The translations under genes and the position numbers were made by a program. The notes beneath the pieces were generated by a model. The model was not told where the DNA came from, ran no database searches, and saw only the letters and a list, made by a program, of their open reading frames with translations. DNA of 55,868 nucleotides from Saccoglossus kowalevskii (lineage: Eukaryota; Hemichordata; Enteropneusta; Harrimaniidae): the NCBI RefSeq assembly GCF_000003605.2, contig NW_003143305.1, positions 221,571-277,438 of the forward strand. The letters are read 5' to 3'. Numbering within the stretch: position 1 is the first letter of the stretch; each line of letters begins with the position of its first letter. Shown here piece after piece: positions 7,506-47,361 of the stretch.

Positions 7506-7510
7506 AAAAT

Positions 7511-8362: not shown

Positions 8363-8369
8363 TATGTCG

Positions 8370-20090: not shown

Positions 20091-20094
20091 TTTA

Positions 20095-20903
20095 CCTGAT
20101 TAAATTCCGCATATCCTCATCACAAAACGATCAGCTACATCTACTGGAATTGCCTCATATGCTTAACAGCACCAGAACAGTATTTTCTCTTTGAGACATC
20201 TTCTGAACTCACTCTTCTTCAACCGACATGAGCCGGCAACATTGTATGCATCTGACAAAACGAGGAGCTGCACTTTGTGGTGTATTGTGAACAATGCATG
20301 CAAACGACGATGATGATCGGTCTTGCTTCAAATCACTTTGCTTCATTTTCTTTTCAGTTTTTGCAGCTATCTTAGCTCTATGGGTCTAATTTTTCTTTCA
20401 TTGTAAGTCTTTTCTGTTGTCTTGCTCCCATTCACATGTATTGTTGGACAAGACGCTTGAACAGAATCTTTATAGCCATGGTGTTGAAAGTGGTTCCTGG
20501 ATAGTTTATGTATATACCAGCAAAAGATGATATAAATGTTATCATTGTTGATCAATTGCTCAGTAGCACTGGATATGAGCTGGAATTTTATCAAGTTTTT
20601 AACAGTGAACAACTTGATTCATTCTTGCTCTAACTTGATGAAAAATGTATAAGCTCCATCAGTTACATGGATAAGACCACGTTTTGTGAACTGCCCAGTG
20701 TTTCTGGATACATTATGTTTCTTCTTGTATTTGATGCTGAAACAATTAGGTGATTAATCAGCTCCTTATTTGCAAATTCCCGTTTTACCTTTACATGGAC
20801 TTTTCTATCTTTGGATGTTACATTATTTTTAATGTATTAGCGTGAGGCTTCTAATTCAAGCTTTTGTGTATTTTTGAATTTCGAAACTAAACCGATGTAT
20901 CAT
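20095..20903 (-). repeat. Dispersed repeat copy 2: 3' flank of pogo-like element
   Basis: Matches 7511-8362 along its length in the same orientation. Its right edge coincides with the stop codon (20900-20902, minus strand) of the adjoining pogo-type transposase, which suggests the repeat is the element's 3' untranslated and terminal region. The left edge, near ACCTGATTAAATTC, is a candidate element end. Confidence 0.75.
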
Positions 20904-21573
20904 TTCCTTTTTGTTTCAATTGGTATTCCACGTTTCAAAGCTAATATAGTTCTAGCTGCTCTACATATATTGCCATCTTCGTTGAAGTCCGCGTTACTGT
21001 CGTCGAACAAAATCCCTACAGCTTCGTCATGAAGTCTATGTCGTCGCACACAATTTTCTCAGAAATCAAGTCTTCTTGAGAACTGTCTAAATTATTTGCA
21101 ATGGCTGTCACTAGGAATGACTTTCTGACTACATCAGTGGACACAGCTTCCCAAGCCTGACTAACCCAGTCTATAATGTGTTGTCTCGTTGGCTGATTCA
21201 GATTGTTCTTTTCCGTGTGCTGTCCTTCCCGCATGTTTTTCACCCACTCTATTCTAAGATGATCTTTAAATGGTTTATTAACACTGACATTCATGGGTTG
21301 AAACTATCGCAGTACAACCAGCTGGCATAAATACCAAGTCAGTGTCACAGCTATCGGCGGCAGGTCTTGCATTGTTGGTCATATGCTGACGCCCTGTCAA
21401 TAATAAGGAGGCGTCTAACATCGTTGCTGTTTCCCCCCCCCCCCCAAGTACGATTGTACCAAGTAATCATTTTGTTCGATGTCATCCACCCATTATTAGT
21501 TGCCGTTATTCGTACATTTTTGGGGATAAAGAGCTTAGACATCACCCTGGGACTAAACTTCCCGTCTTCCTTC
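20900..21573 (-). pseudogene. Pogo/Tigger-type transposase, C-terminal half
   Basis: Minus-strand reading gives the DDE_1-type order. FIPKNVRITATNNGWM lies near 21520; in related transposases the NGWM motif precedes the second catalytic region. RRLLIIDRASAYD (about 21410) holds the second Asp. CDTDLVFMPAGCTAIV runs on, after a one-base frame change near 21300, into QPMNVSVNKPFKDHLR, where the usual third Asp (QPxD) is Asn. The tail reads VVRKSFLVTAIANNLDSSQEDL and, after another frame change near 21025, an acidic C-terminus ending in TGA at 20900-20902. The 5' edge is a strong splice acceptor (TCTTTTTTTCACAG, exon edge 21573), so the element had introns. The N-terminal DNA-binding part was not found adjacent. 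Inactive on these lesions. Confidence 0.8.
21433..21445. repeat. C13 homopolymer
   Basis: Thirteen consecutive C within the transposase remnant (G-run on its coding strand). Such runs are prone to length errors. Confidence 0.9.
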
Positions 21574-23974: not shown

Positions 23975-24452
23975 TTAAACTATTATTTCCAGGTCTCCAT
24001 TCTTCATGTCATCTTGTAACTTGTAAGAGTACACTGCCTCCACATTGCCGCCTTCATATACTATATTGTACCATTTCGGGAATTCAGACGCCTGAAATAT
24101 ATAATAAAGTATTATAATTATTGAGATGCCACAGACAACTGCCATGGAATAAAATATTACCACATAAAAGGTATTATAATGATTCGATGAGATTACCAAT
24201 TGGCTAATGAATAAAAACAAATTTGGTGACTGCATTCCAGGTAAAATTGAGTGGTACAATATAAGCCAATGAAAATAATCTAAATTCTAAATACATATTA
24301 TTATCAGTAATTAAGATATATGTCTGTTCTGATCATACCTGTGAGAGAACTGTGCCTCTGTAATCTACAAATTTCCGACCTATGTCGCACTTTTTGCCAA
24401 CAAGGAAAGCGGTTTCTGGGTCTTGTGAATCCGACATTGCTGGCCAATTCAT
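23975..24452 (-). CDS. Family X, copy A: two-exon C-terminal Tudor/chromo-like module
   Basis: Exon 1 (24452-24339, ATG at 24452) ends TCACAG|GTATGA. Exon 2 (24091-23975) begins after ATATATTTCAG. Both borders are in phase 0, and the join gives 76 codons ending in a stop. The joined product reads LVGKKCDIGRKFVDYRGTVL, then SEFPKWYNIVYE and VYSYKLQDD, ending GDLEI. It aligns end to end with the intronless module at 41806-42168 (LVGKDVDHKC...GRVI...PGFPTWYNIKY...YTYQLQDD). The short beta-rich layout with conserved aromatics resembles Tudor/SAWADEE/chromo-like reader folds; ligand binding is inferred. The ATG chosen may really be internal to a longer exon, since related proteins carry this module at their C-terminus. 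A stop lies just upstream in frame. Confidence 0.6.
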
Positions 24453-24599
24453 TGCAGGACAAGTTTACTCTCTTCCTTCCTTGTTCACAAAAAAACTGAA
24501 GACCGATTTGTCTCCTGCATCTCGTTTCAATACATTATTATTTTCAGAGCTTGATCTTTTCCTTTATTTGAGCGCATTGATTCTAACATAGAATCAACT

Positions 24600-25004
24600 T
24601 ACCCCATAGTTTTCTAAAGAACATATTTTCTTTTTTGGAATGCAGCACGGATAGACTTCATTCCTGCAGCAGCAACCAATTTTTGACTTGTGTCATCATC
24701 CTGAGATGATAACCACAGATCAGTCTTGTTCATAAGAAACATTGTAGAGGCCTCTGAGGCTAATACCATTATATTGGGCTAGAAACGCATAAGTTGATCA
24801 AGATACCCAAACAGACGCTCCACATATTTATCGTGCTTAAGCACTAAGCGTCTGTTCACGAAATTCATGGTTATTACCTCATAAAGGCCACCTTTCATTA
24901 GTAACTTCGTAAGAACTGGTAACAAGGACCTCGGGATCTTTTGAGTGTGACCATCATGATACTCTTGACTATGCATGATAAAAGCATCCAAGACAGTAAA
25001 GTGA
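24600..25004 (-). pseudogene. Family X, copy A: FGYLDQLMR region
   Basis: The minus-strand frame (from 25004) contains KYVERLFGYLDQLMR, a stop, then PNIMVLASEASTMFLMNKTD and KSIRAAFQKRKY. The same order occurs in copy B (35590-35735: IFGIVDFLFRY, PNETYIMYSVNTTRDWL). A splice donor-like GGG|GTAAGT lies at about 24605. It could link this part to the C-terminal module at 24452, though a stop (TAG after KYVL) precedes it in this frame. The segment begins within 20 bases of the 5' splice site of the promoter/exon-1 repeat at 25019, so a deletion has probably joined the gene's 5' end to its C-terminal third. Confidence 0.6.
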
Positions 25005-25310
25005 AGGCAGAGTCTTACCTTTCTTTAGCTTTCTTTCAGTGAGTATAAACACACGTCAAGTGATTATCTGAGTGAATCTAACGAAGATATGGTAGCCAAG
25101 GCATACGCTCGTTCTTCAGGTTCAGATCAGACGATCCCGGATGTTGGAGAGTGGGAACTTCGGTACCTGTCGGGATCGTTCAGCGATATTTCAATCACAT
25201 CGGCCATTTATACTACACTCTCCTCAGTCATCTTTTTCGGTGGTGGTTACATCATCCTGTACTTTTTCTTTTCCAGTATCAGGCCCATGTGATTTAGGCA
25301 GGTATCGCGT
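25001..25310 (-). promoter_or_regulatory. Promoter and first-exon repeat, copy 1
   Basis: On the minus strand, TATAAATGGCC (TATA at 25212-25205) is followed by about 190 bases and a splice donor AAAG|GTAAGACTCTGCCTT (exon edge 25019). The block matches 55541-55858 in the same orientation through TATA box, leader (CGACAGGTACCGAAGTTCCC) and the first 20 intron bases. Conservation of both a core promoter and a 5' splice site suggests the 5' end of a multi-copy transcription unit. Here it sits directly upstream of family X copy A. Confidence 0.65.
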
Positions 25311-25460
25311 CAGTAACTCAGATGGTTATCAAATGCATTGTTACATGATATGGAATAACTAACAAAACGCAACTCAACATCCATCATGTTCCAATACATT
25401 CAAAATCCATCTGATCAGTTAGTCCATCAGTCTATTTACCCATACAGATACGTAGTGCTA

Positions 25461-25505
25461 TCAGTCAGTCAGTCGGTCATTCATTCATTCAGTCAATCAG
25501 TTGTA
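25461..25505. repeat. Degenerate CAGT/CATT microsatellite
   Basis: Runs of CAGTCAGTCAGT then CATTCATTCATT, imperfect tetranucleotide repeats. Confidence 0.8.
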
Positions 25506-25605
25506 AGCCACCCATAATGGTGGGTAGAGTCTGGTCAGTCAGTTAAAAATCACCCACCACAGAGGGTACACTTCCACCCATGTTAATGGTTTCCCTGTGG
25601 CACTT

Positions 25606-26240
25606 CTATTCAGCTGGAGGCTGTTCTTCAAGGAACAAGTTCTTAAAATGTTCCCTCTGACTTGACGTCAGCCGTTTCAGAAGAACCATGACAACTCTCC
25701 AGTGGATCAGCACCACAGGGCTGCTCGGTGGGCGAAACGTATACCTAGGTGGGATCAGCCAACCATACTCTCTGCAAATGTTGTTCATCTTCCACACATA
25801 AGTGGGGGTCACATACCAGTTATCAGTAAATTCTCTATGGAAGAAATTAACCAACCAGATATATATCCTTTCCCACCTTGCTTCTCTTCCCAAGGCTAGA
25901 GATCCCAATGTGGTTATTGCAAAAGTAACTTTCCTCTCAGGGGATACGGATTTCTCCCTCAATACCACTCTTTAAAACAGTGCACTTTCACGGATCTTGT
26001 CCAAACCCTACATCCAGGGAGCGGGCACATGGAAGTTCTCTCCATAGTTCTCCCTGGCTGTGGCGGTGCAGGAACACACATTGGGATCAACTTCATTTTC
26101 TGCTCTTCAGGACATGTTAGCGTCACTTTGCGAGTTGGCAGTGACGTCATTGTAGAACCAGAAGCCTCGCCTGCTGGTAATGCTGGCAGTGATGATGGGT
26201 TTTTTTCATTCACACTAACCTTGATGTTACCACCCATCAA
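25606..26240 (-). pseudogene. Zinc-finger-like ORF remnant of an uncharacterised family
   Basis: Two overlapping minus-strand frames. The upstream frame (26240-25959) has LTCPEEQKMKLIP and then CPLPGCRVWTRSVKVHC, a C-x4-C...H pattern suggesting a zinc finger. The downstream frame (25968-25606) has MNNICREYGWLIPPRYTF, then SPVVLIHWRVVMVLLKRL and a terminal EEQPP. I recall multi-copy invertebrate and fish proteins with this order (Cys-Pro-x-x-Gly-Cys finger, then a helical domain with a VLIHWR motif), often near retroelements, but I cannot name the family. One frame change at about 25965 separates the halves. Confidence 0.5.
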
Positions 26241-26249
26241 ATGTGCTCT

Positions 26250-28160
26250 TATCCTCCTTTCCCTTATGTTCTTTGCGTCAGAATTCCCAGTTTCTAGGGA
26301 TACTCTGCTTTTTCCTAGTTCTAATCTAAATTTCTTTACTTGAGGTTCCGGTCTTCATCCCTCTTTTTTGGATCTCTCTTCTCGCCACTGGCTCCACCCT
26401 AGATTTCATTTGGATTTCCATTTCAGGACACAATAGCAGTCATTGAAACAAAGTATTACCATGTACATTAAACCAAGGATTTTTTCAAACAAGGGAAGAG
26501 GGGTGCAGCTCCCTCAAGCCATAGAATGATCCATTTTAACTTGGAATTATCAAAAACTCCACACCTTGGTAGGGAGAACCCTACCCACCCCCACTTGGTG
26601 GCGCCACTGAATTGCAGTGCTCCCTCTTGCTGTTTTTTTTTCTAGAGATAAACCCTGTTAAACTTTTATTGAACAAAAGCCATTGTCAATGACATAGTCC
26701 CAGTTTGTATTAGCATTTTAGGATGGACAGGTCACAGTACAAGATGAGAGGATGGTGATTACAGCGATCATAGCAAAGGGTGGGGAAAATCATCTATGTA
26801 TATAGATATATCTGTAAAATGTTAATAGTAATCACCTAATTAGAATGTAGCAATGGTTTTTTAAAGCAACAATTTAGAGAAATTCAAAAACGTGTGTAAT
26901 ATGCACAGAAACAAGAGTTGAAGTTATCCATGCTGTTTATTTATATTGAATGATCTGGCCCTTTTTTTATTTTTTCATTTGTCAAAATTATTGTGAATTT
27001 GTTTATCATAAACTACAAAAAAATTCATAATCAATCTGATGAGATTACAAGAAATTATGACTGCACATTCCTCCTCAGTTTGCTGAATTATTTAGCTCTA
27101 ATTAATACCAGCACTGTCCCTTTAATATGGTAAAACAAGTAAACATTTATAATATATATTTGTTATTAAATTTATATGCCTACTGCTGGTAAAGATGCCA
27201 GTGAATACTATTCTACTCAAACATAGCTGATTAGCTCTACTCAACAAAGAAAAGTGTTTTATCTATTTTACCAACACAACAATCTCAAAATAAATAGATT
27301 AATTGTAAATTGATGTACTATGACTTTGGAAATGAAACATCAAAATAGAACAAAAATACAACACCAGCAAATGCTTACATGATTCTGTGGCATTTAAATC
27401 ACCTACACACTCATGGACGGGCAGACATTTGTACAAGACTACCTACTTTGATAATTTTCTTGGTAAGAATCTTAGCAGTATGTCATATGTTCAAGGAATG
27501 TTTAATTTCTGAATATATAGTAAATGAAGATGTGATTAGGCCATCATTCAAACCGTCGATTAATAACAAAGTAGGATTTAAAAATACGTTGTATAGGAAA
27601 ATATAGTCCATTGTGCCTTAAAAGCAATACTATATTTTTCATAATAATGTCACCAGGTAACAACGTCATACATACTATGGCTTGCCAGTTCATTTATTCA
27701 GCTTTGACTAGACTGCTTTGAATCTGGACAGAATTTAAACTTACTCATCTCAGCTCCAATTTGTGGATCAACAAGCAGCTGAAAGCCACCTAGAAACTGT
27801 TTACAGTATCTATGTACCTTTACATGGGTTGGCGGCGTCAAACAGTACCCGTGATGGGAGACAATACAATACAATACAAATAATCAACAATCAGTTACTT
27901 GACAATACAAAAAGCAAAAACAGAAATCACCACATGCTTTAAACATCACAAGCATGTCAGTCTACGTTCAATAGACAGCTACTGGTCTGTCCTGTCGGTG
28001 TGCATATTTCGGTGACACAAAAACGACGAATTCGGCCAAATGTTGTTATCGGTTGGCTTAATATAACGGACCGTATTTTTGTGAAAGATTGGTATTTTTG
28101 TCCTGATTGGTAGGAATCTGGAAAACGCATTTCACAACTTGTCTCTTATTTAGTTTTATG
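26250..28160. other. Non-genic stretch
   Basis: Contains a short (AATAC)n run near 27868 and short ORFs only. No recognisable exon or element. Confidence 0.45.
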
Positions 28161-28167
28161 CGTCATT

Positions 28168-28180
28168 CAAGATGGCGGCC
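28168..28180 (+). promoter_or_regulatory. YY1-like site
   Basis: CAAGATGGCGGCC matches the YY1 consensus (AAGATGGCGGC) and lies about 230 bases upstream of the Tigger-like first exon on the same strand. In animal promoters this motif often lies near the start of transcription. Function is inferred from the motif and its place only. Confidence 0.45.
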
Positions 28181-30175
28181 CCCATATAGTAAATATCGTA
28201 TTTATTTTATTATCACGTGTGCGCCAGCTGACTGTGGATTAAAGGGGTCAACCATTTCGTAACTAGGGTATGTCAAAAAGATTTTTGAAAAAAATATGTT
28301 ACGCAAATTGTGTTGGGGTGTTTTCATTTTCGTGTACGTTGTAGGGATCAATAAATCACTGCTGATTCTGTCCCTTTCTAGTTCTCAAAGTTTGAACTGT
28401 GGCGAATAAATCTGAAAGAAATGTGTTGAGTTTGGATAAAGGGTTAGAGTAATCCAGCTTTATGAAAATGGGAGGAGTTCAAGAAAGGTAGCAGAGATTC
28501 TGGGTGTTGGCAAAACACAAATAAACAGTGTTATGAAACGAAAAGCTGAGGTATTGGACGAATTCGAGAATAATGCTCTCAGTGACAAAAAAAGAAAAGT
28601 AGAAAAACTGGTAAGTAATTTATTTCAATTATGAGAAAAACACCACAGACTTTCAATTTCATAGCTACAGTCTATACATACATTCAATGCCTATTTATTT
28701 TTTAGGAAATGAGCTAAATGATCTGAGCTGCGAGTCGTTTAAGCATCACCAGAAATGAGTGGACAAGATGGCTGACATCCGCCCTGGCCAGTGTTCCCCA
28801 GTCAAATAAACATCACAGAATGTGCCATAGAGAATGCATTGCATATATTAAAAACATATATTAAAACCAAATATAATTTTGAGTTTATATTTTTCATTTT
28901 TTTTCACTTTTGTGTGCTTCGTAATAGACAGGTGACGTTCCAAGCTTACGATATGTTATAGATATTTCCATTAAAACTCCACCATTAAATGCCCAACTTG
29001 CCGTAAAACATGATGACAAATTCTACACTGGCCCAATGTATTACCAATGGACGATGTGTATTTGTGTGCCAGACTGTTTTTACAAATAAGAAAATGCAGT
29101 AACGCAGGTGACTGTTCAAGTTTGTTTGCTTCGTTCTGGATACTCTCTGGTTCAATGAACATGGCGACGCAGCTGACGCAGTATTTGCTGCCCAAATTAG
29201 ATTTGAAATTCATGCATTTTTTTACACATATGTACGGTCCAGTTGTTAGCAAATATAACTGTTTTAATCCAATTAACAACAGGAAGTAACCTGAATCAAG
29301 ATTATTTCAGATTATGTTATGATATTCCATGTTAAATCACCTCACCTTTCAAACGCGAACCACTAACGCCATACTGCTTTTGATGCTGATGGTCAGACCA
29401 CAAGATCAATGTATTGTATCCGCCGTTTTTCCTCTTTATAAAAGAGGGCTTTCAGCACACTGTCTGTCCGTGAGTTGTGTATTGTTCCACGACCGTCTCT
29501 ACTTTATTTTGTAATGCGTCAGACAAACTTAATTTGCATATCAATTGCCATTGGCGACCACAATGATATTTACAAGATTAGTCTGTTCACATATTTTTGT
29601 ATTAAGTAATATAGCAGGTGACTGTCTTCAATGCCATCATAAGAGTATACCTAAGGGTATCCCGTCCTCTGGCTACCACAACCATGTATTACATGGCTTC
29701 ATATTATCAGCTAAAAAAAATACAAGTGGGCACAGAACAACGGAAACAAAAAATTACCTCACTTACTATTATTTCCAACCCCAAGCTGTGAACTACTTAA
29801 CATAACAATAGACTCTCAATTAGACTAAACAATAGACCTTTAAAGTCTATGAAATCATCAGTTGTCTTGAATAATTTTGCATGTAATTATAGTCAATGCA
29901 ATGGGATAGACAGGAAATCCCTACTTGACCAGATTCTATTGTCCATTTCTGGCATGCAGCATCACGCCGGCTACCCATAAGTGGTACTATGATTGAAAAG
30001 CGAGCTCTGAAGTTGGCTGCTGACCTCCACAATGATGATTTTAGGGCATCCAATGGTTGGCTGGAGTTTTTTCGTAAGTGCCACAACATCGTGTTTGGAA
30101 GAATGACCGGCGATCTTGGTGATGTGTCGAGATTGCCAGTCATATGCGAAGGCATATTGTCGCATACGACTTCCG

Positions 30176-30635
30176 TGTCACTGAGAATGTTCTAGAACCG
30201 TATTGTGTCTGGGTGGAATTTTTAGAAGTTGGTTGAATAGGTAATAGGACACTGTAGAAGGCAATATAATGTAATAGAACATTCTAGAAATTTGTAGTAA
30301 GTTGCAGACTCATTATGTATGCTGATGTAATGGTCTATTTATAGACAGTGTGGGTATATATAGGGGAGTTGTTCAGCACTGAGATCAGATCGGAGATCTT
30401 GTTGAATTGTATTGGAGTTTAAGTATCTAGTTATTGGAGTAGTGGAGTTTTACCGCGTTATTGTACTTGATGTTTGCAGAGTATAATAATACCAGTACCA
30501 GTTGAAACCTCATCTGTTGGCTCCGTGTTCGTATTTTATCATCGCCGCCAGGGAAGTCTTTTTGTTACTGTTGCCATTTTGGTATATGTGATATATTTTA
30601 TAAATGCACAACTGATAGTCCCCTGTATATATATA
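30176..30635 (+). mobile_element. Candidate solo LTR or insertion inside the Tigger-like gene
   Basis: The segment begins TGTCACTGAG, separates the CENP-B domain from the DDE core, and has promoter features (two heat-shock elements, TATA). A TG start fits an LTR. I found no clear CA end with matching flanks, no polypurine tract and no second LTR. It could alternatively be an intron with regulatory sequence. Confidence 0.35.
30185..30363 (+). promoter_or_regulatory. Two heat-shock elements and a TATA box
   Basis: GAATGTTCTAGAA (30185-30197) and GAACATTCTAGAA (30277-30289) are both perfect three-unit HSF sites (GAAnnTTCnnGAA). TATATATAGG follows at 30355-30363, about 65 bases after the second site, with a TTCAGCACT initiator-like stretch near 30372. 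The arrangement is that of a heat-inducible promoter reading rightward. Activity is inferred. Confidence 0.55.
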
Positions 30636-31089
30636 AAAGGAGAAGATTGCAGTGGTGACAACAAATCAAAAGAACGTTAAATTCTCATGTTATGCAGCAA
30701 TCTGATAGGGGAAAAGAAAAGGCCACGATGTTTTAAAAACATTAATCCCAGGACATCACCAGTCAGTTACTACGCAAACAAAAAGGCTTGATGATATCAA
30801 ATGTGTTTGAAGACTGGTTGCGTGGCTTGACAGAAGACTAGATCGCCAGATAAAGAAAAGCTCAACTCTTCTTTGACAGAGCAGCATGTCACAAGCATCT
30901 CAATCTGGATTTCATCCTGTTGACATCAACAGCAATACAACCATGGAAAATGAAGACACTGGTGATAATGAACCTCATACCGCCGCCAATGCTCTTTTTG
31001 GCAGTCCAGTGCAACCCCTTATAGACATTGATGTCAACTTGTTGACTACCAACAGTGTTACTGACTGGGAGTGATCTGCTGTAGATTTG

Positions 31090-33180
31090 TTGGCAGAACA
31101 GAATGATGAGTGACAAAGAGAATATAGAAAAGAAAGAATAAAAAAACAACAGTCACAGATTTGACCACAGCAGCAGATAAATTGAAGAGTTGAAAAAAAT
31201 TAACAAGACACAAAGATTAAAAAAACCCTTGACAATCGGAACAGCTAAACAAAGCAAACCGAGACCAAAACTGCTGAACACTACTCATTATTGTGCAATG
31301 ATTTTTAATTCACATAATTCAAAATTGAATATAAATCGTCATTTTTGTATTCGTACTGAAGTGTTTGGATACTGTGTACAGTAGTGTAATAGTGTATGTT
31401 AAATAAAGTTGCAATAACTGTTCTAATACATAGATTCAATGCCTAATTAAATAACTGAGCAATAATGCAATTTATTTCTAGGTAGCCATGAATGAATTTG
31501 ATCAAAGATGGAGATTCCCTAATGCAAACTCTACAGTAAATTGGTTAATGGAACTTTATATTCTGAACACCCAAAATGTAGGACATATTCTTTTTGCCAA
31601 TTAAAGTAGTTGGCTGCTGTTAATAAAAATAACCAAATTGTCTCGACTTGTACAAGAAAATGCTAAATAGATTAATCTGGTCGGCGAGTGCACCACTGAA
31701 ATAAGTGCAAAGCGCTCTTTTTTTACCACAGGGAACAATTCTTTATGGGTTTTGCGCGGAAAATAGTTCAACAAGCACACTTTATTACAAAGTTGTAAGC
31801 GACAGCATAAAATAAAACTGCGTCAAAAGTCTATAAAATTTGGCGATATGCTTAAATGGTAGCCGACTACATTTACAGGTGAGCAACACTTCCCGATAAT
31901 TATGTGCAACATAGTATTATTTATTACAAGACGAAAACATTCAGATAGCAAAATGTTACTTGCCCTGTATCAAAACAAAATGTGACAAAATACAGATACA
32001 TATAGAAATTATCCCTTATAATGAGCTTTTGTTTGAGAGTGTTTGCTCTTATAAAATACTTGGCAGTAGTATTGCTGGTTCTCGGTGTATCGTTGCTGGT
32101 TTTTGTTGCCTCAAATTATGGCAAAGTTCCGGGATGCTGACCTATTATTGGAGGATGTGGAGAATAAAAGATATGCAGGTTGATAGATTGATTTATAGGC
32201 TTACTTGTGGCGGTGTAGTGAAATGCCAAAAACTTGTACTGGATGAAGATTGGCGAAGATTTGGCTGATGTGTTTGCTATCATCATACTAAAAACATTTG
32301 TTAGTTGATCTCTATCTGCTTTTCTTGCCTGGGCTTCTCTCTGCATCATTAGATCAAATTGTTCTTGTTTTTCCCCGCCTTATTTCTATTTGCTGTAACT
32401 TATTGAATTGTTTTCCTTCAAAATCAACCAAGTTGTAGGACATGGAAGACATGTCTCCCTCTAATTTTGCTTCCCGTTTTAGCAGTATTAGGCTCTGAGT
32501 ATGAAATGGTGGGAAAACATTATTGGTTGATGTAATTGAGAAATGATTATTATAGGAGAGAGAAATAATGTGTTTATAATATAAACTTTGGTTGGTAACA
32601 ATAAGTTTTTTTTATTTGTACAAATAACTAAAGTGGTGTGAGATAATTGGTGACAAAAAATGTCAAGCATATTTCTATTTGTATTGAAATATACTAGTAA
32701 CTTTTTAAACTGAAGTACTTTCGCCTACTTGCAACATTATTCCTTTGAAAGAAATACAATAAAATACAGTTCTAGTTTTCAAATGAAGCTCATGGTCGAT
32801 AAGACATTTAAAAGTTTAAAGTTACCAGGTCATTGTTTCATTGTGCCATGGAACTACAGATTTATATTTGCAACAATAATAAAACACCGAACATTGAACT
32901 TTATCAGCCAAAAACATTTGCTTACCTTTGCAATCAACATTTCTCCCACTGATCTTTAGACTAAATGCACATTAACCGAAATCATCCTTTCAAACTTGTA
33001 CATTGCTCATTAGAAACTGTTCCATGGCTTCCAGGACTTGCACTACCGTCATCGGTAATATCGTCAATGTCTAAATTTAGTTGGGTGTCATCTTAGTCCT
33101 ATCTGTGTCTGTAAGGTCTAAAAGAAAATAAGATTTATCATACAATGATATTTCCTAAATGAATACAATAAACAAAATAT
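31090..33180. other. Non-genic stretch
   Basis: AT-rich with short ORFs on both strands. No motif supports a gene. A lysine- and glutamine-rich stretch just after 31080 may be the decayed tail of the Tigger-like gene. Confidence 0.4.
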
Positions 33181-33184
33181 ATTA

Positions 33185-33515
33185 TAACAAAGGCAATAGC
33201 GTGCCCCTTGCACTTCTTGATCCAAACCATTGTTCCATTGTACTTGGACAATTAACCCGTATCGTATGTCTAGCATTTCCACAGAAAATGGAACACAACA
33301 ACAAACAACCAAAGTTCACGTACTGGAGATTCATACAATTCATGAACAAAAAATAGAAATGCACAAAAAGGAACAACTGTGGCATTACTTACATGCCAAA
33401 TAATAAATAAAATAGTGAGTGACAATCCCAACATCAGTTCGAACCATCGTCCTAGAACTATTAATAGACAATTCACACGCATTGTATGCCTCCAACACTT
33501 CCACAGGAAACGGAG
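33185..33515. repeat. Local direct duplication
   Basis: Unit 1 (about 33170-33300) and unit 2 (about 33405-33515) share CAATTAACCCGTATCGTATG/CAATTCACACGCATTGTATG, then CTAGCATTTCCACAGAAAATGGA/CTCCAACACTTCCACAGGAAACGGA-type sequence. On the minus strand both encode a similar short stretch (ARHTIRVNCPST and RHTMRVNCLLIV), so a duplicated exon or domain is possible. Confidence 0.55.
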
Positions 33516-33899
33516 CATTGGCGAGCACGACGCGAATCAACCGAAATCGAGCAGATCGCCTATAGCGGGCGCTTTAGCTGACACATACTCGAAGTCGATT
33601 ATATTTCAAAGCTCTTGCCGTGTTCATCTAGTACATGCCCACAGTGTATCTTGTTGGTAAGTATAGTGTAAGTAGAAGTTATATATTTCATCAGTCAACT
33701 CCATATCAGGTAATTAAAATTGAAGATTATTTTTCGATGTAATATGTTTGAAATTCAATGACCTTTAACCTGCCGCCCAGCCATCCGTGGACGACTACTT
33801 CTCCAAAAGCGCTAGACCGTTTTTGAGAAACCATACTGCGCTGTGTATATATACTGATTAGTAATGCATGTCATTTTTTTAGTCATTTCTGTTCAGCAA

Positions 33900-35740
33900 G
33901 CTGTAGATGTGAAGCCATTTGACATAAATGGATCAGAACTAAAATTTATAAGGTCAAGCGAGATACAAAATCTCTAAAAGGTTAGCACAGAAAATTAATC
34001 CTAGAGACAGATTTTGTTGTACCAGTCAATAAACCCAAAGAGCGTCCACCTAAAATAAGAGGAAATGGTTCCCATGAGTGTGGCAAATGACCTGGCTAGA
34101 GAGCTATACCAGAAAAGGCCAGCCAATCCCAAATCGACACAATAAAGAAACAAAACCAGTCTTTACAAGAAAAAGACTGGTTTTGGAAATCTCTCAAAGC
34201 AACACATTTGGTCAATCACAGCCTACGAAAAGTAGCGAGGACAAAGAATAAACATGCAACCTCCATTATTAGTCTTAAGAAACATTTAAATAAGAAAGTG
34301 GAGAGCTGCAGTGTATAGACTTCATCATAGAAACTTTCTGGCAGAAAATACCCATGAAAGAGGCAGTTTATTGTCAATGTTGGAGAATGAGAAACTAAAA
34401 GTATTTGAGGAGGCCTACACGCCAGCCCTCATGGAGTGTATTATGAATCTTGGCAGTAAAAACGTTGCCAGTGGTAAGATGAGCTAGGTAATTGCTAAAA
34501 TTCTGGCACTGTGTGGGAAAGGCAAATAGGTTGCCATCATAGAGAACCATTGATAACATCATGGATTCAAGAGTACCAGTACGTCACAAGCTGTAACCCC
34601 AGCTTTGAACACTTGTTATTCCAGGATGAAACCAGGAAGTTTGGACGGACATTCAACATCAATGTCGTCAGCGATGAACAGCAGACTGCATTTGTGCTTG
34701 AACTTGGGGAGATAGAAAATATAACATCAAGAACACTATTCAGCACTCTCCAAATGATCCTGATGGACATCAGTGAAATTTCAAGTACTTCTGTTGGCAA
34801 GACCATTGCAAGTCACATGAAAAACATGTTGAGTGACCGAGCTAGTAACAACATAGCTTTCAACGACCTGAATGAAGAAGAACAGGGAATCTACTCAAAA
34901 ATAAATAATTTCTTCTGTGGATTGCACCTCCTAGTCAACTATGCTGATTGTTCATCAGAAATCTTTCGCAAGTTCGAAACATCATATACCATCAACGGAA
35001 GTGAATGATCCATTCAAGATGCTGGTGCTCTTAATCTGGTGAGGATGGCTGCCAATTGCTTTGCAAGGGATGGGGGGTGAAAAGTCTGGAGCTTATGGAG
35101 AATTTACCACTTTTCTTTGTTCCATTGGTCATTGACATTCTTTGGTAACCTTTCGTGGCAACAGATATAACATCATCTTCCTTCTGCAGAAAGCTCTATT
35201 AACCAGCTTAAAACATCTTTTGTATGTCGCAGGAGTTAAGATACTGAATCTACTGGACAAACTTGTAACTGTACTTTATGGCGAATCATTGAGGGTACAA
35301 ACCACATTCTGGAACTGAATACCAACCATCGGCTCCTACATTTTTCACGTGTGCAGCAGAAGATGCCACAGAATTTATCAAAGGCAAAGATCACTCATTT
35401 ACTGAAGATTGGCTCCATAAAAATGTTTGAAGCTCTCGTCGAGGAATATAACATGGATGAGATTGCCTTGCCCTTGCCCAATCCATTTTTCTGGGGCTAC
35501 CCACTTTGTTACAACGTGGTGTATTTCATCAGCCATCGAACAGCCTTAGAACCAAATCAGTTCTACCAACTTACAAGATGTCAGAATTTATCTTTGGTAT
35601 TGTTGATTTCCTGTTCAGGTATGGACCCAATGAGACATACATTATGTATTCAGTAAACACAACAAGGGACTGGCTTAGGTCTCTACCCCAACAGGAAAGA
35701 GACAATCTACTCTTATCGTCCAAGAAAGAGGGTAGATAAA
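33900..35740 (+). pseudogene. Family X, copy B: N-terminal and middle regions
   Basis: Plus-strand fragments in consistent order: EEAYTPALMECIMNLGSKNV (about 34405); the longest frame (34511-35008) with ETRKFGRTFNINVVSDEQQT, HMKNMLSDRASNN and INNFFCGLHLLVNYAD; SIQDAGALNLVRMAANCFAR (about 35015); FRGNRYNIIFL (about 35150); a segment ending ILELNTNHRLL (about 35310); and MSEFIFGIVDFLFRY, TTRDWLRSLPQQERDNLL (35580-35735). I recognise the order (SDRA, NNFFCGLH, FRGNR, FG.LD.L.R) from an uncharacterised multi-copy family in invertebrate genomes. Its function is unknown; high copy number suggests mobility. At least five frame changes or stops. The C-terminal module is absent here, but copies A and C carry it. 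Confidence 0.65.
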
Positions 35741-35744
35741 CAAG

Positions 35745-36460
35745 AAAAAAATGTATAGAACGTTGTATAGAGCTCAATCCTCTTTTTCCCCCATGTCTTA
35801 CTATGGTGCATCATTTGTCAGTTCCTCTGATTGACATCATATCCGAAGTCTAACTTACTATGGCAACCATAAATCTATTCTCTTTTATCCTAAGTTAAAC
35901 TTTGTATGGAAAGCACATCTGACCCTCCCCAGGGGGTAAGTCAATGTCTTATGTCAAACTGCTAGGCAGTGCAAAAAGCAAACATACTTAGCATAAATAT
36001 ACAGTGTACTGCATTGTTAGCTTCTAGCACAGCCCTTTGGTGCTCCAAGCAGAAACTTTTCCAGCATTGTGACACTTGGTGAACTCAACTTGAATCATGG
36101 GCAAACCAAGTAAGTACAATCTGAATAGTTGTAACTCTCAATGAATTGAACTTGAGTGGGCTTGGCTACAAATGAATTAAACTCAAGTGAGCTTGCATTG
36201 AACAGAATTAGAGTTAGGTGGACTCTGCTACAAATGAATTCAACTAACTGACAACTATCGGTCGTGGTCTCAGTTATCAAGAATCTCACATCAGGGGCAA
36301 CAGTCAAAGATTTTTCACCACAAATTAAAAAATCACAAAATGCAATCTTACAGGTGCAAGTGGAATCGATGAACATGGATTTTTTCTTGCTGTCTATACT
36401 TAATTTTGCTTTATATTTTAAATTTGTCTAAAACCACTTTCTAGCACTCCTTAATACTTT
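35745..36460. repeat. Intergenic, with short degenerate repeats
   Basis: Between 36070 and 36260 the string TACAAATGAATT with AACTCAAGTGAGCTTG-like flanks recurs in diverged form. It resembles, loosely, the sequence around the 31-bp minisatellite near 41.2 kb. No coding signal. Confidence 0.4.
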
Positions 36461-36469
36461 TTTTCTTAG

Positions 36470-39034
36470 GTAAACACACTATTGCCTGTGTTAAAGGCAA
36501 GGAATTCTATGAAACTATCAGATTCTTTCAGGGAAGTGATTGCAGAGATTAATAAAATAATGGAACAGAAAAGCTTTAGTTTTTTCTTGGAGGCGATTAC
36601 AAGGTATTTGCACAGTACCTCCTACAAACACACCAGAATTCAACTTGTCCTGTAGCATAATAGAGAGCAGCCTTATAATAATTTTCTGAAGATTATTGTG
36701 GTGGTGCCCTGCTAAAAGTGGTAGTGCACATATACAGTGTAATGGCAATAAGTATCATGTATCAATAAAGTTTTTATTATTTTTCAGTTTATTCTTATGG
36801 TCCTTGGACTAAAATGAGCCACAAGCCAGTATGCATGTGCATGGTGTCATTGCCCAAAGAAAGAAGGGTACAGTTATCTTATAATTCAACATAATTTGAT
36901 CAATATGTTTTAAAATGTATGAGTATATATAATGTCAATAGAAATTGCCTAACTATGGAACAGACTCGTACATTGTACATGCCAGTCAGTGTACTGTATT
37001 TGATCTATCACTAGCACATTTAAATTAGAGATTTTTCTATGCTCAAAACAAGCAATATTTTAATAATTCAGTATACAGCATATGGATTTGTTATGTTTAT
37101 ATGTGCTTCTATGGGAAATGTACTTCTAATGGAGTAAATATGGTATCTTGAAAGCCGTGCATGTAAGATTTGTAGTAGTTACTGTTTTTTCAATTAATAG
37201 GCATGATATTAGCAAAGACAATGATCACTGGACTATTCAGCCTCACTGCATGTCAATAGAAGGATTGGTTAAAGGACAGTTCTCAGTTCATCTTGATCCT
37301 ATTTTTTCAATCCCATTGGATTGTGTTGTGATAGATGAACCGCACTTGTTACTGCGGATAATGGATGTCCTGCTTAGAGCCGTTGTTCTGGAACGTCATG
37401 AGTTGGACTTAAAGGTACTGAATATTTACTGTAAATAAATTAGTCTAAAAATACACTTCAAATTTCCACACTTTGAAGCAGTTCTCACTTATATGCTCAC
37501 ATATATCCACCACATTATATCCTTTAGGAGAAGAAAAACGCAGTGAAGTCATTGGTCGAGTGTATCAACAACACAGTATATGTTACTTTCAACGTTTGGG
37601 TCAAAAAAGGAACCTCTGAATTGGACTGGACTAGTCTGACAGGTGGCAATACGAAGTTGTTGTTAAAGAAATTACCTAGTCATTTATCAAGTATTCTGAA
37701 CAGTGAAACATTAGAAATAGTCAAGACAATTTGGGAGGTTAGTTTTGTTCATATTCATCTTATATTTGTCTTTGTAATTAACTGCCAGAGATACATGCAT
37801 GGGTCAATTAATTCAACCCTGCACAGTGATCCATTTAGCTACTTTGCCTGATTAACATGATTCTTGGGGCAATGTGCAGTTTTTGCTTCAAATTTCAAAG
37901 TGTATACCTGCTACATTCAAATCTGGCTCCCCGTACTCAAAAAGTGGAACCTCTGCCTACAGGTATAGTTTTCGTTGATGTGGGGGGGGGATATATGTTT
38001 ATGCTTCCCAAGATAATCGTTGTGGAATATTCAATATGGCAAAATCATAACCTAGAGGTTGTATATTCATTTTATATCTACAGGTTGCTACAGACTAACA
38101 CTGATAGTTCTTTTAATCTATTATAACAGACATTTTGTTTCTATTTTATTAGAATTTCAATGATTTATACCAATTGATGAAGAACAATCCAGTTCCACAT
38201 GTGTTCCAGGAGAAAGCTAAAGAATGGGTAAACCTATTTCTAACGCTATCTGACAGGCGTACAGTCTACCAAAGAGAACGAATCACCCCATACATGCATA
38301 TTAAGTACCCAATATGATGAAATTTCATGGTGATATCACTCTTTACTGGACAAGGTTAGTAACTGATTCCATGCTCTTAATAGAGCAGTGATAGTAAATA
38401 AGTACTCCAGTGATATGTACGGGGGGGGGGATAACTGTATATCAATTATTGTAAATTTTGTTATTCAACTTTTGATCAATCACTATAAAATAACAACTGT
38501 TTTGTTTCATTATGTAGTATTACTCATTTTAACCAGTCTATTACAATAAATATACATATCCTTTGATATTCAGGTGTGGAAAAGAACAATGATGATGGTA
38601 GGCGAGTGTAGTTCAGACGCAGCAATAAAGCTGATACTCCTGCTGATATTCTGCAGTCTGAGAAGACACAGAATATGCTAAAGGATTTCCAAAGGCATAG
38701 GCGAGAATACGTCAAACGAAAGGCCAAGTACTGGGAGGATGGCATCTATGACGAGAGGAATGCAGGCCATGCATTAGCAAAACCAATGCTGCTGCAATTA
38801 TAGTATCAAACCAGCCTACATTCCAAACAGAACAGTGTGACAGAACAACACAGAATATTGAACAAACTGTTTCACAGACAAGTGAGCCATCACATATACC
38901 AGTAACAGACAAGCAGACAATTATGAAGATGCGGCTTCCTGAACTTAAAGATCAGTGCTGCAGTCATAATCTTGCTGTATCAGGGACTAAAAAAGAAGTT
39001 ACAGGAAAGACTTGTTAAGGCTTTAAAACTGTAA
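36470..39034 (+). pseudogene. Six-exon gene of an uncharacterised family with C-terminal SAP-like motif
   Basis: Exons with GT-AG borders: 36470-36603 (HTIACVKGKEFYETIR ... FFLGGDYK); 36788-36867 (FILMVLGLK, stop, ATSQYACAWCHCPKKE); 37201-37414 (VVIDEPHLLLRIMDVLLRAV); 37528-37737 (VTFNVWVKKGT, LDWTSLTGGNTKLLLKKLP); 38153-38354 (EKAKEWVNLFLTLSDRR, RITPYMH, frame change, VPNMMKFHGDI); 38574-39034 (VEKNNDDGRRV, stop, FRRSNK, then MRLPELKDQCCSHNLAVSGT). Phases agree at every junction. The last part fits a SAP DNA-binding motif, completed as KLQERLVKALKL after a one-base frame change at an A-run near 38991. I recognise the DE.H.LLR...FLGGD...VEKNND signature from multi-copy cnidarian, mollusc and lancelet proteins, probably transposon-derived. 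Three or more frameshifts and two stops make this copy look dead, unless the base calls are wrong. Upstream exons not found. Confidence 0.75.
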
Positions 39035-39059
39035 AAATGTAAATGCAATATCAATATCA

Positions 39060-39300
39060 ATTTTGTCATTTAATCTTGATGGCCAGTGCATTAACCAGAA
39101 TAGCCATACGGGAGGGGGGGGGGGCTTGTATTTATTATTGGCATGTTTACAATGAGGGATATTTATTGTTATGTTTCAGTCCTGAGTTGTATATGATATA
39201 AATTTATTTTTAAATGCACTGATTGATCTTAATGGCTGTAAGGGCGGGGGGGGGCTTTATATTTATAATTGTATAAGGACGGATAATACAATCTCATCTT
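39060..39300. repeat. Duplicated unit with poly-G tracts
   Basis: ATCTTGATGGC ... G11 (39114-39124) CTTGTATTTAT and ATCTTAATGGC ... G9 (39246-39254) CTTTATATTTAT are two related units. Further G-runs lie at 37982-37990 (G9) and 38421-38430 (G10), inside introns of the preceding gene, all on the plus strand. Confidence 0.7.
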
Positions 39301-39379
39301 TGTTAAATATAAAAGAATACGGTAGTTCTTTTTTTGGAGTATGTGGTGGCCCTGAAAACGGCCGTTTGGTTTGTGTGAA

Positions 39380-39913
39380 TGATTATTCACTTAAGCACAC
39401 CATTCTTTGGTTACACGTACAGATACAGTTTCAATCTTGTAAATCTCCCTGGTAACATCATCTGTGATTAAAACACTTGGTTTACTGGTCTTCAATGAAA
39501 ACTTCATCTCCATGTTAGCCACCTTGCACTTGGTGCCCAAATTGGTGGTATACTCTTACCATTCACGAGGAAAATACACCGGGCTGAATATGTCCTTATT
39601 GGTGGGGTCAAAACGCCTCGGGTGTTTCCTATATTGTTGGATACCAATATCCCCACCAAATAAGGCATCATATACATCCCGGTGCATTGGGACAGTGTCA
39701 GAATATACCATCTTAAGTGGATTGCCAAGTGCTTGACGGACCATCCTGAATTGCTGACTTCTCTGGAGGTATCATTTGATAGAATCGCTGAATGGGACCA
39801 ATGGGAACATCATTTTCACACAGCCATTTCCACTTGTTGGATGGCTCGTTGGGATCAGCCAACAGAAACAACTCAACATTGCCTACTTTCCTTGTTGCTG
39901 TAATATGGTACAT
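39380..39913 (-). pseudogene. Decayed ORF of unknown family
   Basis: A frame from 39913 (VGNVELFLLADPNEPSNKWK, IQRFYQMIPPEKSA) is followed, after a frame change near 39745, by a second (NPLKMVYSDTVPMHRDVYDA, GIQQYRKHPRRFD, a stop near 39556, then KVANMEMKFSLKTSKP and TREIYKIETVSVRVTKEW). The amino acid mix is protein-like over about 170 codons, unlike neighbouring AT-rich shadows. I do not recognise it. The zinc-finger remnant at 25.6 kb is not clearly related. Confidence 0.4.
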
Positions 39914-40370
39914 GTTGTCAGGACTTAGTAAACTGGTATAATACTGGGCAATTCCTTGGTTATATGCACAATGTTATGCAGCGGAACAAAGAAAACAATT
40001 AGAAAAAACAGCTTGGGTTACGAAAACAAAGAACCACTCATAATAACAAAGGACTGTGCTGGACCCTTGAAAACAATGGATTAAGTTCTTGGCTCTTGCA
40101 TCTAATTAAAGGCAGAATTCCCTGAGTCAACAGGAAATCATTAGAATACACCCCAAGCTGACAGGAAATGACTTTTGACCAGCTTCTATTGTTCATTTCT
40201 TGCATGAAATATGACTTTGAGAGAGGTGGCTTCTTTGAAAATTACTGACCAAGAACATGATCTTTCTGCAGAGATATCAAGCAACAGATCGGGTAGAGTG
40301 AAAAAGGTTTTTCTGCCCACATGTACACGAGTCTAAAAAGGTAGGATCTGACAAATATTTACCTATACCC

Positions 40371-40860
40371 ATGGACACAAATAGTTACAGTTTTGTCCCT
40401 GATAGTTTCCATTCTCCAGTTACTGATACTGCTAGTACTAGTACTAGACGTAGAAAACTTAAAAAACACCGCAGAAAGTCAGAAAAAAAAACATATGATC
40501 GCAATACTAGTGACAGTGATGAGGAAAACAGCTGCAAGCCTAGAAAAAAGCCAAGAAGCCATAGAAAAAACATCACTTGAGTAGCAGCACTGACAGTCTT
40601 AGTTCTAATTAAGGCACAGGTGTTGGCAGGTCTATGATAACAATGTACATGAGATAATTGGAGAAATTGATGGAGAGCATGAAAATGTACATGGGAATAC
40701 TGAACATATGGATAGTGGGTCGGAACATGTACTGTTTAAGGTGGAGATGACAATAAGCGTGAGGATGAACAGGTTGAAGATAAAGGTGAGGGTGGTGGTG
40801 ACGGCAGTGTGCTCGAGGAAGGAGAAATCGATGATGTTGATAAAACTTGGATCCTGTTTC
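40371..40860 (+). pseudogene. Basic-then-acidic low-complexity coding remnant
   Basis: MDTNSYSFVPDSFHSP opens a frame rich in Lys, Arg and Ser (RRRKLKKHRRKSEKK, SDSDEEN, KPRKKPRSHRK). After frame changes, acidic stretches follow (GEIDGEHENVHGN, then KREDEQVEDKGEGGGDGS and LEEGEIDDVDK). The layout suggests the start of a nuclear protein or an element's accessory ORF. No family is recognised, and low complexity makes any call weak. Confidence 0.3.
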
Positions 40861-41180
40861 AAGTTATTATATAGTATGGATTGGGGGTATTACCGATATA
40901 ACTTATATATCATGCATACATATATTGTACATGCATATGTTATGAATTCAAAATGTATGTATTTATGATACATTGCTTTGTTATATGTATCTTACAAATT
41001 AGTAATATAATACTACAAAATTATTAGACTTGTAGATTTTGTTGTCCACAGAAGAGTACTTGTTCTCATGAAGGTAATCAGACTACATAGTCTGATGACA
41101 GTATGTGGACCCAAGTCAAAAATAGTTATATTCAACAGTCACCCAAGTTGAAATTAATTGTAATTTCCACCGACAGATTT

Positions 41181-41381
41181 GAATTTACTTGTAGTTAAAA
41201 ACAGCCCTATTAGAACTTACTTGTAGTTACTTTAGCCCCATTAGAACTTGCTTGTAGTTAATTTAGCTCCATTGGAACTTACTTGTAGTTACTTTAGCCC
41301 CATTAGAATTTACTCGTAGTTACTTTAGCCCCATTAGAATTTACTTGTAGTTACTTTAGCCCCATTAGAATTTACTTGTAC
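41181..41381. repeat. 31-bp minisatellite, about 6.4 copies
   Basis: Units of GAATTTACTTGTAGTTACTT followed by TAGCCCCATTA start at 41181, 41213, 41244, 41275, 41306, 41337 and 41368 (partial). Copies 4-6 differ at very few bases, so the array is fairly recent. Confidence 0.9.
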
Positions 41382-41579
41382 ATGTTAAGCTCAAGTCCAA
41401 TAAATTCGTAGCAATGGTTACCCAACTTAAATTAATTTGCAGTTACTTGCACTCAAATGAAATTAGGTAAGTTGTAACGTAATACTCAAGTACAACTTAG
41501 TATGCAACTTTGCACCCTTGGTTAAATGACATTTCAAATGAGTCACCATAGAAAGTTTGACTTGGAATAACATGTGTGT

Positions 41580-42168
41580 AGTAGCCCCCAGGGAGAAAGA
41601 GGATTAAGAAAAGGAGAATTGAAGCATTGCACAAAAAACAATTGCTGGGGGAAAAACATAGAGGTCTTGAAAGAAAAAACAGACTTAGCGACGAAATGGT
41701 GTTCTTCAGCTTGTGGCAGTCGGTTGAGGAAGTTGCCGCTAAGTTGGGAGGAATGAACACAATTAAAAAAAAAATTTAACGACACAATTAAAATTCAGAA
41801 AGACGATGCTACAGCAATCTTCCACCAATCCTCAACTGTTTACCTTGGCCAAGAAACTGCCTTCTGGCAAATATGTTCCAAAGACAATGCCTGATCTGAA
41901 GTGTGTAGAAACTTTAGTAAATGAAGCAAAAGCTTGCGAGGCCACATTAGAAAATGTGGATGGAAGAGTTCCACTCTTGGTAGGTAAAGATGTGGATCAT
42001 AAATGTGATGATGGCATAACTTATACAGGAAGAGTGATTAATGTAGTGCCAGGATTTCCAACATGGTACAACATCAAATATGACCACTTTGATGCCATAT
42101 ATACATATCAGTTGCAAGATGATTACCAAGAGAGAATTCTGAATATTAATATGAAACCAACTTTTTGA
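41580..42168 (+). pseudogene. Family X, copy C: coiled coil, WQSVEEV segment and C-terminal module
   Basis: A first frame (about 41600-41778) reads KKRRIEALHKKQLLGEKHR and FFSLWQSVEEVAAKLGGM. After a frame change near 41800 the ORF 41806-42168 continues with MLQQSSTNPQLFTLAKKLPS, a linker, LLVGKDVDHKCDDG, PGFPTWYNIKYD and IYTYQLQDDY, ending at a stop. The C-terminal ~55 residues match the two-exon module of copy A and are intronless here, which suggests either intron loss by retroposition or ancestral intron variation. The ATG at 41806 is probably internal to the original protein. A Tudor/chromo-like fold is inferred from size and conserved aromatics. Confidence 0.65.
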
Positions 42169-42169
42169 G

Positions 42170-43080
42170 TTAGATAGTTATCTATCTGCATATACATATG
42201 GAAATTGCACATAATTTTAAATTAAAAACACTTCTGTTATAACCCACAAGTAAAAAACAAAAAATATCACATTGCATATTTATGCAGCATTTACCACAGT
42301 AAAACGAGTTGAGCACATATGTCTATACATTTGTTAGTGTATAAAGGGTGTGTTTGTTTAGATTTTAAGTGTAATAACCATTGTACTTTTTAAATTATAT
42401 TTCATCAAACTTATTTTAATGTCAGATTCCTGTCATTCATTTATTTCAGAAACTACAAGTTGTAAATAACATTAAAATTGTACATATTAAGAAGATTTAT
42501 CATTCTGGCTGTCCTGACTTACATAAAGGTAAATACCATGAATTTGTTCTGCTAATGGTTGGTTTTAACTTTTGCCCCACCATGCAAATTCCGACAATGT
42601 GGTGATACATTGGTTATTTCTCAAATGTCAGTATACTTTCTATGCATGGCACACCTAAAATCGGTTAGTATATTATTGTATTATTTCTGCAGTTGTCATT
42701 TTTTCCAATCGCCCTCACACAGCAGGTGGACATTCATTACCAAGGTCAAGCTGTGGATATTATCATTATTGAACTATTGCTTAATTTCCAACACAAATAA
42801 TTGGTATAACTCTTTCGAATATGAATGGTCTGCCTTGCCTAGACTATCCATGTATATTAAAGTATTTATTGGGGATTCACACAATATATAAACCCAAAAC
42901 AGAAATAAATGTGAAAACATGTGACCTCACCCAAATGTACATAAATAAAATAAAATAGTGAGTGACAAATTTAGATCATCCCCGGGAAAATCATCGATCC
43001 CGGCTCCAGTTTCTGAACAACAGTTGTTCAAAAATAACTTCCCTAAAATATCTACGACAATCGCGGGCGGTGGGTTTATT
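42170..43080. other. Non-genic stretch
   Basis: One 110-codon plus-strand ORF (42559-42891) without motifs. The sequence AAATAAAATAGTGAGTGACAA near 42950 also occurs at 33405-33425, hinting at a shared dispersed repeat. Confidence 0.4.
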
Positions 43081-45700: not shown

Positions 45701-47361
45701 CTACAAATGCCCCTTTAACTTATTTACAAAAAGGAATCCATAAAATTGTACAGTGCTTACAATGAAGGATAAAGTACTCAATGTTGTGCAAAAATACTCG
45801 AGTAAACTGTTTCTCACGGGTATTACAGTAGGATTACCAGCACCTTGATATGGTACATTTGGCACATCAAACTTGTCAATACCTTTCAATAGTTGTGGAT
45901 TAAAAGAAACATTGCTATCCTCACACATGTTGTGAAGTATACAGCATGTAGTAACAGTTATTGGAACATTATCTAGACGTAAATCATTTCTTTTCATCAA
46001 GCATCTCCATCGCCCCTTTAAACGCCCAAATGCATTTTCAACGACCACTCTTGCTCTACTAAGCCTATTGTTGAATCTTTCCTGATCTTGAGTTAGCTGC
46101 CATTGTCCGAAAATGGTTTCATCACAATGGGCATTAATGGATAAGCAGGATCAGCCAATATTACCGGTCGTATTTGGTGATCTTGATGTTTTTGCTCTGG
46201 AAACAAAGTACCATCTGTCAACTTGCTATGAATATGAGAGTTAGCAAATACTCTGGCATCGTGTACGCTACCAGCCCTACCTACATTTATATCAACAAAT
46301 TTACAAGAGCCTGTAAAATAACAGAATAAAATGACTTTCTGTTGAAACAGTCGCTGAGATTATTCTCTGGGGCAATAATTGGTACGTGGCATCCATCTAT
46401 TATAGCAACAGCATATGGGAAGCCCCACCTTTGCTAAAAACTGTCCATTGTTGCCTGAAAAATAATCGTACAAATCACATCACTGTAAAATTTAGGAAAA
46501 ATCCAGACATGAGAATAATAAATTAATAATATATGTGTGACCAATCCATTCAACAAACGAAAATATAACTACATATACTACCATTCAAGATGATTGATTC
46601 TCACTAGTCCTTATATAATATAAATAATAATTGAAATATAGAAATTGTATGCTAATTATAAACATTTTTGATTCAATAAACATTTAAATATCAACTTTAA
46701 CTACAGATTGTCCAATCAGCAGAAATAATAATTTTAGTGACGCCACATGAAAAATTACTGACAATAATTTTAACCCAGATTTTATTTTAACCACCTTCAG
46801 TAAAAAAACTTAATAAAATTCCACACGATGAAGAAGATGGAAATGTAGTTGAGGTTGCACCAAAGACATGCACAATTGTTGACCTACCAATTCCAAATAA
46901 ATGAGCAATAGTTCTGTAGTGTTGCTGCAATTCTCACGTCCACTGAGATGGCATATCGCATTCTAGTGTCTGATTTCTTTAAATATGGACGCAGTCGATC
47001 ACATATGTATCTCTGTTGATTCTGAAATGAAGTAAATTAAATTTATCAGTTTTCTAAAATATCCACATATTACGACATGAAACATTATAATAAAAAGCAG
47101 AAAGTTGAACATAAGCATCACCAAACATCGAATTAAAAATGCAATTTCAGCTTACCTAATGTTTTCAATAAAATCTTTGTTATCCCAGGTTGGTAAAACT
47201 ATCCTGTCCCACCAATGAGTACTCCTTGTACGAAGGACAGTTGTTGTTCGTAAGCCAGCTTCTTGTATGAAAAGTACAAATGAATATCTCAGTCGACGAC
47301 GTGCATTCATATAACGCTGTAATCGAATTCTTTGTTCAGTGATATATTGACGTGAGCGCAC
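45701..47361 (-). pseudogene. PIF/Harbinger transposase (HARBI1-like)
   Basis: Minus-strand exons: 47361-47156 (MRSRQYITEQRIRLQRYM ... WWDRIVLPTWDNKDFIENIR), donor TTAG|GTAAGC; from 47021 after CATTTCAG (QQRYICDRLRPYLKKSDTRM, frame change, LFGIGRSTIVHVFG, the helix-turn-helix region); and from 46454 after ATTTTTCAG. The last part carries the DDE_Tnp_4 core: GFPYAVAIDGCHVPIIAPEN (first Asp), FVDINVGRAGSVHDARVF, PVILADPAYPLMPIVMKPF (second Asp) and VVENAFGRLKGRWRC (Glu), then CCILHNMCED. All three catalytic residues are present. One in-frame stop near 46435 and short frame changes near 46320, 46100 and 46925 disable it as read. Harbinger proteins cut and paste DNA, usually with a Myb-like partner. 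Confidence 0.85.

Follow-up and report, generated by a model that had tools for sequence, protein, structure and literature searches.

What are the three protein-coding remnants that lie within 18 kb of one another in the genome of the hemichordate Saccoglossus kowalevskii? The stretch analyzed here, which we call the window, is 55,868 nucleotides long (assembly GCF_000003605.2, contig NW_003143305.1, positions 221,571 to 277,438, forward strand). A first-pass annotation made from the sequence had described remnants A, B and C as three fragments of one uncharacterized multi-copy protein family with a reader-like C-terminus and no catalytic triad, and had left the choice between a new transposon class and a domesticated family. 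Very probably, the remnants stem from a cut-and-paste DNA transposon, present in two decayed copies, whose transposase carried a D-D-E core and a Spindlin-type Tudor tail. That the element moved by cutting and pasting is supported by related copies in the same genome, among which are found terminal inverted repeats, target-site duplications of 7-8 bp and derivatives with internal deletions.

When the whole window was searched by tblastn with 129 family relatives (E<=1e-3), hits were confined to A (24994-23978) on the minus strand and, on the plus strand, to B (34350-35775) and C (41767-42147); counted by best 500-base bin, 118 of the proteins were drawn to A, 128 to B and 78 to C. Among six-frame pieces of the window alone, A and C have in common a block of 33 amino acids (aa) with 48% identity (E ~1e-6). 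Because of this block, and because the relatives match only at these places, A, B and C are one real family. The overlap between A and B is not visible when the window is compared only with itself; when the two are placed through the relatives, VERLFGYLDQLMRF of A and SEFIFGIVDFLFRY of B occupy one and the same part of the family protein, and this block is real as well. Thus the single family and both shared blocks proposed in the first-pass annotation stand, and its count of three copies falls. With one relative, P0046, as a ruler, B corresponds to residues 258-820 and C to residues 823-1009, and at a locus on contig C347 of the same genome (L038), which lacks the first ~170 bases of C, B-like and C-like pieces adjoin, at most 36 bases apart. 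From this contiguity of sequence, B and C are judged to be one copy, cut by ~5.8 kb, and A a second one; three independent copies are ruled out by the consecutive places of B and C on P0046. The extent first given to B, 33900-35740, is supported from 34350 onward, with only a weak colinear match (P0039 residues 68-123, E 0.25) over 33900-34349. The DNA match of A to its relative on contig C1912 (three blocks at 83, 73 and 77%) begins at 24996, where a repeat begins (24995-25308), and so the repeat probably cut the 5' side of A. This repeat, which abuts the cut side of A, recurs in the same orientation at 55536-55857 (80% identical over 323 columns).

A search with the B read-through, its reading path picked by hand, brought up 16 relatives with E<=0.01, the best at 4e-56, three of them annotated with Spin/Ssty, and a profile of five cores matched 241 proteins at E<=1e-3, 120 of them listed. 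Among the matches listed, the named relatives are proteins of bivalves, of gastropods and of the sponge Dysidea avara, and bear annotations such as 'uncharacterized', 'hypothetical' and 'SPIN3-like'. Three alignments were made: A3, with 110 of the 129 proteins and a mean column identity of 24%; A4, with 40; and A5, with 74 hand-picked members. In A3 a triad D140/D217/E538 (P0033 numbering) is conserved in 105/106, 110/110 and 110/110 proteins, respectively, C263 is kept in 109/110, and H266 and W419 in all 110. The codons for D, D and E persist in window B, contrary to the first impression that a triad was missing. The RNase H-like fold raised as a check in the first-pass annotation was predicted for the core, where it carries the D-D-E triad, and the N-terminal domain was predicted to be four helices. 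The element's one protein, ~1,000 aa long, opens with a small N-terminal domain of helices, which a coiled coil follows; next come the DDE-type core with its predicted RNase H fold, another coiled coil and, at the C-terminus, a single Spindlin-type Tudor module. Within the core a large insertion of helices is predicted, resembling that of hAT transposases. None of the DDE models of Pfam, those for hAT included, recognized the core in 13 members, in 40 members at E<=0.01, or in five at E<=10. The matches obtained were to the tail, to coiled-coil models and to weak singles such as Exu_RNase_H_like (0.075), with the helix-turn-helix model HTH_Tnp_1 matched by one of the 40 (0.0029); five members searched against NCBIfam gave no match near a cut-off. 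Relatives were also sought in viral contigs and genome contigs, with none confirmed by two queries each, a search in which records near the window's own genome were possibly excluded; a prokaryotic or viral origin is unsupported.

The window's own genome (572 Mb, 4,830 contigs; 57 scored candidates) holds 51 matched stretches of the family on 23 contigs, 34 of them with stops by hand count, in keeping with the decaying multi-copy family first described. The copy on C1912 has a 723-aa open frame, with the last exon of the tail lying beyond an intron. In the copies on C1912, C2920, C3528 and C379, homology sets in at an identical base or one base away, with TAGCGATAAC. The other end of the C1912 element, which is 6,067 bp long, is GTCTGTTATACCTA; its two ends agree at 12 of 14 positions, and ATTGTGA stands on both flanks. 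C379 has ATCATTG on both flanks, so that a target-site duplication is seen at two of the three copies with both ends; for C3528 no 3' end was found. As a control, 361,714 random place pairs were scored: four reached 12/14, and 169 showed a duplication of 7 bp under the same four offsets. One stretch of the C1912 copy (3130-6897 of L031) is missing from both C2920 and C3528, with an identical deletion junction, a pattern resembling that of non-autonomous derivatives. Window A, C1912, C2920 and C3528 all have the tail-module intron, and at one common position; since four copies keep it, the family spread via DNA, and copying through spliced RNA is ruled out. The mobility suspected in the first-pass annotation thus finds its terminal repeats and duplications, at related copies and not at those in the window. 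On contig C1166, two family copies (L034, L035) form a 98% identical tandem duplication beside a ~157-base satellite-like array.

Several points weigh against the transposon reading. Both window copies are truncated and lack the element ends. The best copy found, C1912, has its N-terminal piece in another frame. The ends of C379 agree at 9 of 14 positions, with the 3' end placed at repeat-like sequence where homology stops, and C2920, with both ends present, has differing flanks and hence no duplication. In the C3288/C347 subfamily, TAGCGA stands 71 and 12 bases upstream of the common stretch; as a six-base word found post hoc, near the 5' side only, it is a weak sign of an end. The TM-scores that Foldseek gave to Hermes, the nearest solved structure by fold, are low (0.23-0.32 by model length), and a fully aromatic cage is missing from part of the tails, as described below.

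The alternative that survives best makes a smaller claim, compatible with the transposon reading: a divergent family within the hAT superfamily acquired a Spindlin-type domain. We hold this quite possible, at a little under an even chance. Hermes is the best fold match, and the D-D-E triad, a CxxH motif and the helical insertion are all present. The extract of PMC4763223 gives 8 bp as the target-site duplication of hAT elements, and both duplications here reach this length when the 5' T is assigned to the target (ATTGTGAT, ATCATTGT); counted with symmetric TAG...CTA ends they are 7 bp, which would speak against hAT membership. So does the silence of the Pfam hAT models. The C-terminal hAT dimerization domain was not among the Pfam families matched by the 40 members or by the five searched at E<=10, although the fold alignment extends to Hermes residue 609. 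The same extract names an N-terminal BED zinc finger for Kat1 and its relatives, and none was found among the Pfam families matched by the 40 members. Because the duplication length is ambiguous, and because neither the dimerization domain (by sequence) nor a BED finger turned up, the new family is not filed as a hAT member; in predicted fold it maps to a known transposase, and by sequence it matches no DDE model of Pfam.

The reader-like C-terminus of the first-pass annotation is, by sequence and model, a Spin/Ssty (Spindlin-type Tudor) module. Window C alone matched PF02513 (Spin/Ssty) at 4.3e-10, above the cut-off, and a search of PDB returned 17 Spindlin sequences among 20 rows at E<=10 (best 6.5e-19), the single module matching all three Spindlin repeats. 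The predicted tail superposes on Spindlin1 with an rmsd of 1.5 over 66 residues, and the Spin-Ssty model was matched by 30 of 40 members at E<=0.01, with one stretch each in P0033, P0001, P0048 and P0007. The pocket of Spindlin1 for K4me3 is formed by F141, W151, Y170 and Y177, according to the extract of PMC7878818. When these columns were mapped by hand onto the family, 66 of the 88 rows with all four filled had F, W, Y or H at every one.

The core may be a transposase whose tail has lost, or never had, the ability to read histones, serving for instance as a DNA- or protein-binding Tudor module; this we consider plausible, if rather doubtful. It would account for the 22 rows without a fully aromatic cage, for the Cys at the place of F141 in window C and for the absence of a PF02513 match in P0012, and it draws on the PTM/DIR17 Tudor model matched by six of the 40 members of A4. 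It sits poorly with the four positions kept in most rows, with the Spin-Ssty matches and with the fit to Spindlin1. The PTM/DIR17 matches hint, in themselves, that the tail module has been exchanged or has drifted.

That these are ordinary host genes, or a transposase since domesticated, spreading by duplication and leaving decayed copies is very unlikely: for all the many annotated members in mollusc genomes (one of those listed named SPIN3-like), the retained intron and the C1166 tandem duplication, this explanation is opposed by the inverted repeats and target-site duplications of copies that lie on separate contigs, by the identical internal deletion in two derivatives, and by matches on 23 contigs with stops in most stretches. 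Domestication as a general explanation is thus unsupported, although single domesticated genes are possible.

If the remnants are those of a cut-and-paste transposon, the transposase would pair the element ends, aided by the N-terminal domain and the coiled coils, cleave them by DDE chemistry and insert the element at a 7-8 bp stagger, while the Tudor module would bind a methylated histone tail and tether the transposase to chosen chromatin. The Spindlin-type tail might in this way help the transposon choose its landing place; of all the steps, targeting by a histone mark is the least certain. For chromodomain retrotransposons, the literature discusses reader domains that are thought to steer integration. 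Were the proposal true, the cut-and-paste transposase and its Spindlin-type reader would give a DNA transposon that possibly chooses its target by histone mark and a natural model for targeted integration, and a set of mollusc genes annotated as 'uncharacterized' and 'SPIN3-like' would be explained as transposon proteins. More tentatively, the family may be a separate, unnamed group of animal DNA transposons whose own Spindlin-type histone reader picks sites by their mark. More remotely still, a mobile origin might be common to the one-module tail and the Spindlins with their three modules.

Table. Features of the two copies in the window
Feature	Position	Strand	Basis
Copy A: 3' half of decayed transposase gene (core end, second coiled coil, tail)	23975..24996	-	tblastn of relatives; DNA match to C1912
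Copy A: intron inside tail module, GT...AG, 247 bases	~24092..24338	-	limits read by eye
Copy A: Spindlin-type tail module, two exons (24404-24339, 24091-24008)	24008..24404	-	motif places
B/C copy, B: catalytic core, with stops and frameshifts	34350..35766	+	P0046 258-820; read-through search, best E 4e-56
B: QDETRKFG, first catalytic Asp	34622..34645	+	family alignment
B: LSDRASNN, second catalytic Asp	34829..34852	+	family alignment
B: FFCGLH (CxxH)	34910..34927	+	family alignment
B: SEFIFG, catalytic Glu	35581..35598	+	family alignment
Other DNA splitting the B/C copy, ~5.8 kb	35767..41602		P0046 ruler; 5 open frames vs Pfam
B/C copy, C: C-terminal half	41603..42147	+	P0046 823-1009
C: Spindlin-type tail module	41977..42123	+	PF02513 4.3e-10; PDB SPIN3 6.5e-19; motif places
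3' non-coding stretch common to B/C copy and C347 copy	42168..42840	+	DNA match

The five open frames tested in the DNA that splits the B/C copy gave no Pfam match, and its ends were not found; an 18-nt inverted pair lies at its edges and a 31-base tandem array within it, at 41172-41411. No element end was found at the 3' non-coding stretch. Elsewhere in the window are remnants, all on the minus strand, of a Mutator-like transposase (17887-18285; PF20700 6e-5, below its cut-off), a DDE_Tnp_4 transposase (45701-46150, 8.2e-16) and a reverse transcriptase (48740-49246; RVT_1 1.8e-11). A repeat pair at 7510-8363 and 20093-20904 is 76% identical over 889 columns, and two adjoining open frames of 121 and 131 aa at 25606-26354 (minus) are without a Pfam match.

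Among known systems, the new family should work like the hAT transposases, and its predicted catalytic-core fold, with the helical insertion, is nearest that of Hermes; it differs in a core that no Pfam hAT model matches and in adding coiled coils and a Spindlin-type tail. Mutator (MULE) elements make duplications of 9-11 bp. A 9-bp duplication is obtained here only at C1912, by counting both terminal bases as target, and is not borne out by C379; MULE/Mutator models of Pfam were unmatched in the 40 members and in the five searched at E<=10. The P element has an N-terminal THAP domain followed, as in the new family, by a coiled coil; THAP was not among the Pfam families matched by the 40 members. 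P element and THAP9 further resemble the new family in having the D-D-E triad, the [C/D](2)H motif and an insertion between strand 5 and helix 4, as set out for them in the extract of PMC8230255. The tail matches SPIN1-4 in sequence and predicted fold, whereas Spindlin and Ssty have three modules and the new family one, fused to a transposase core; because of this single module the new family, by its sequence, is not a Spindlin. No description of a transposase with a Spindlin tail was found among the titles and abstract openings of the papers listed, an entry in Repbase or Dfam, both outside that search, being possible. Also close is Gypsy-10_Ec32 of Ectocarpus, mobile too and ending in a Tudor domain at its C-terminus, an element that its authors, in the extract of their 2025 paper, call to their knowledge the first transposable element reported with a Tudor domain (PMC12477816); it is an LTR (long terminal repeat) retrotransposon of brown algae, whereas the new family would be a DNA transposon of animals.
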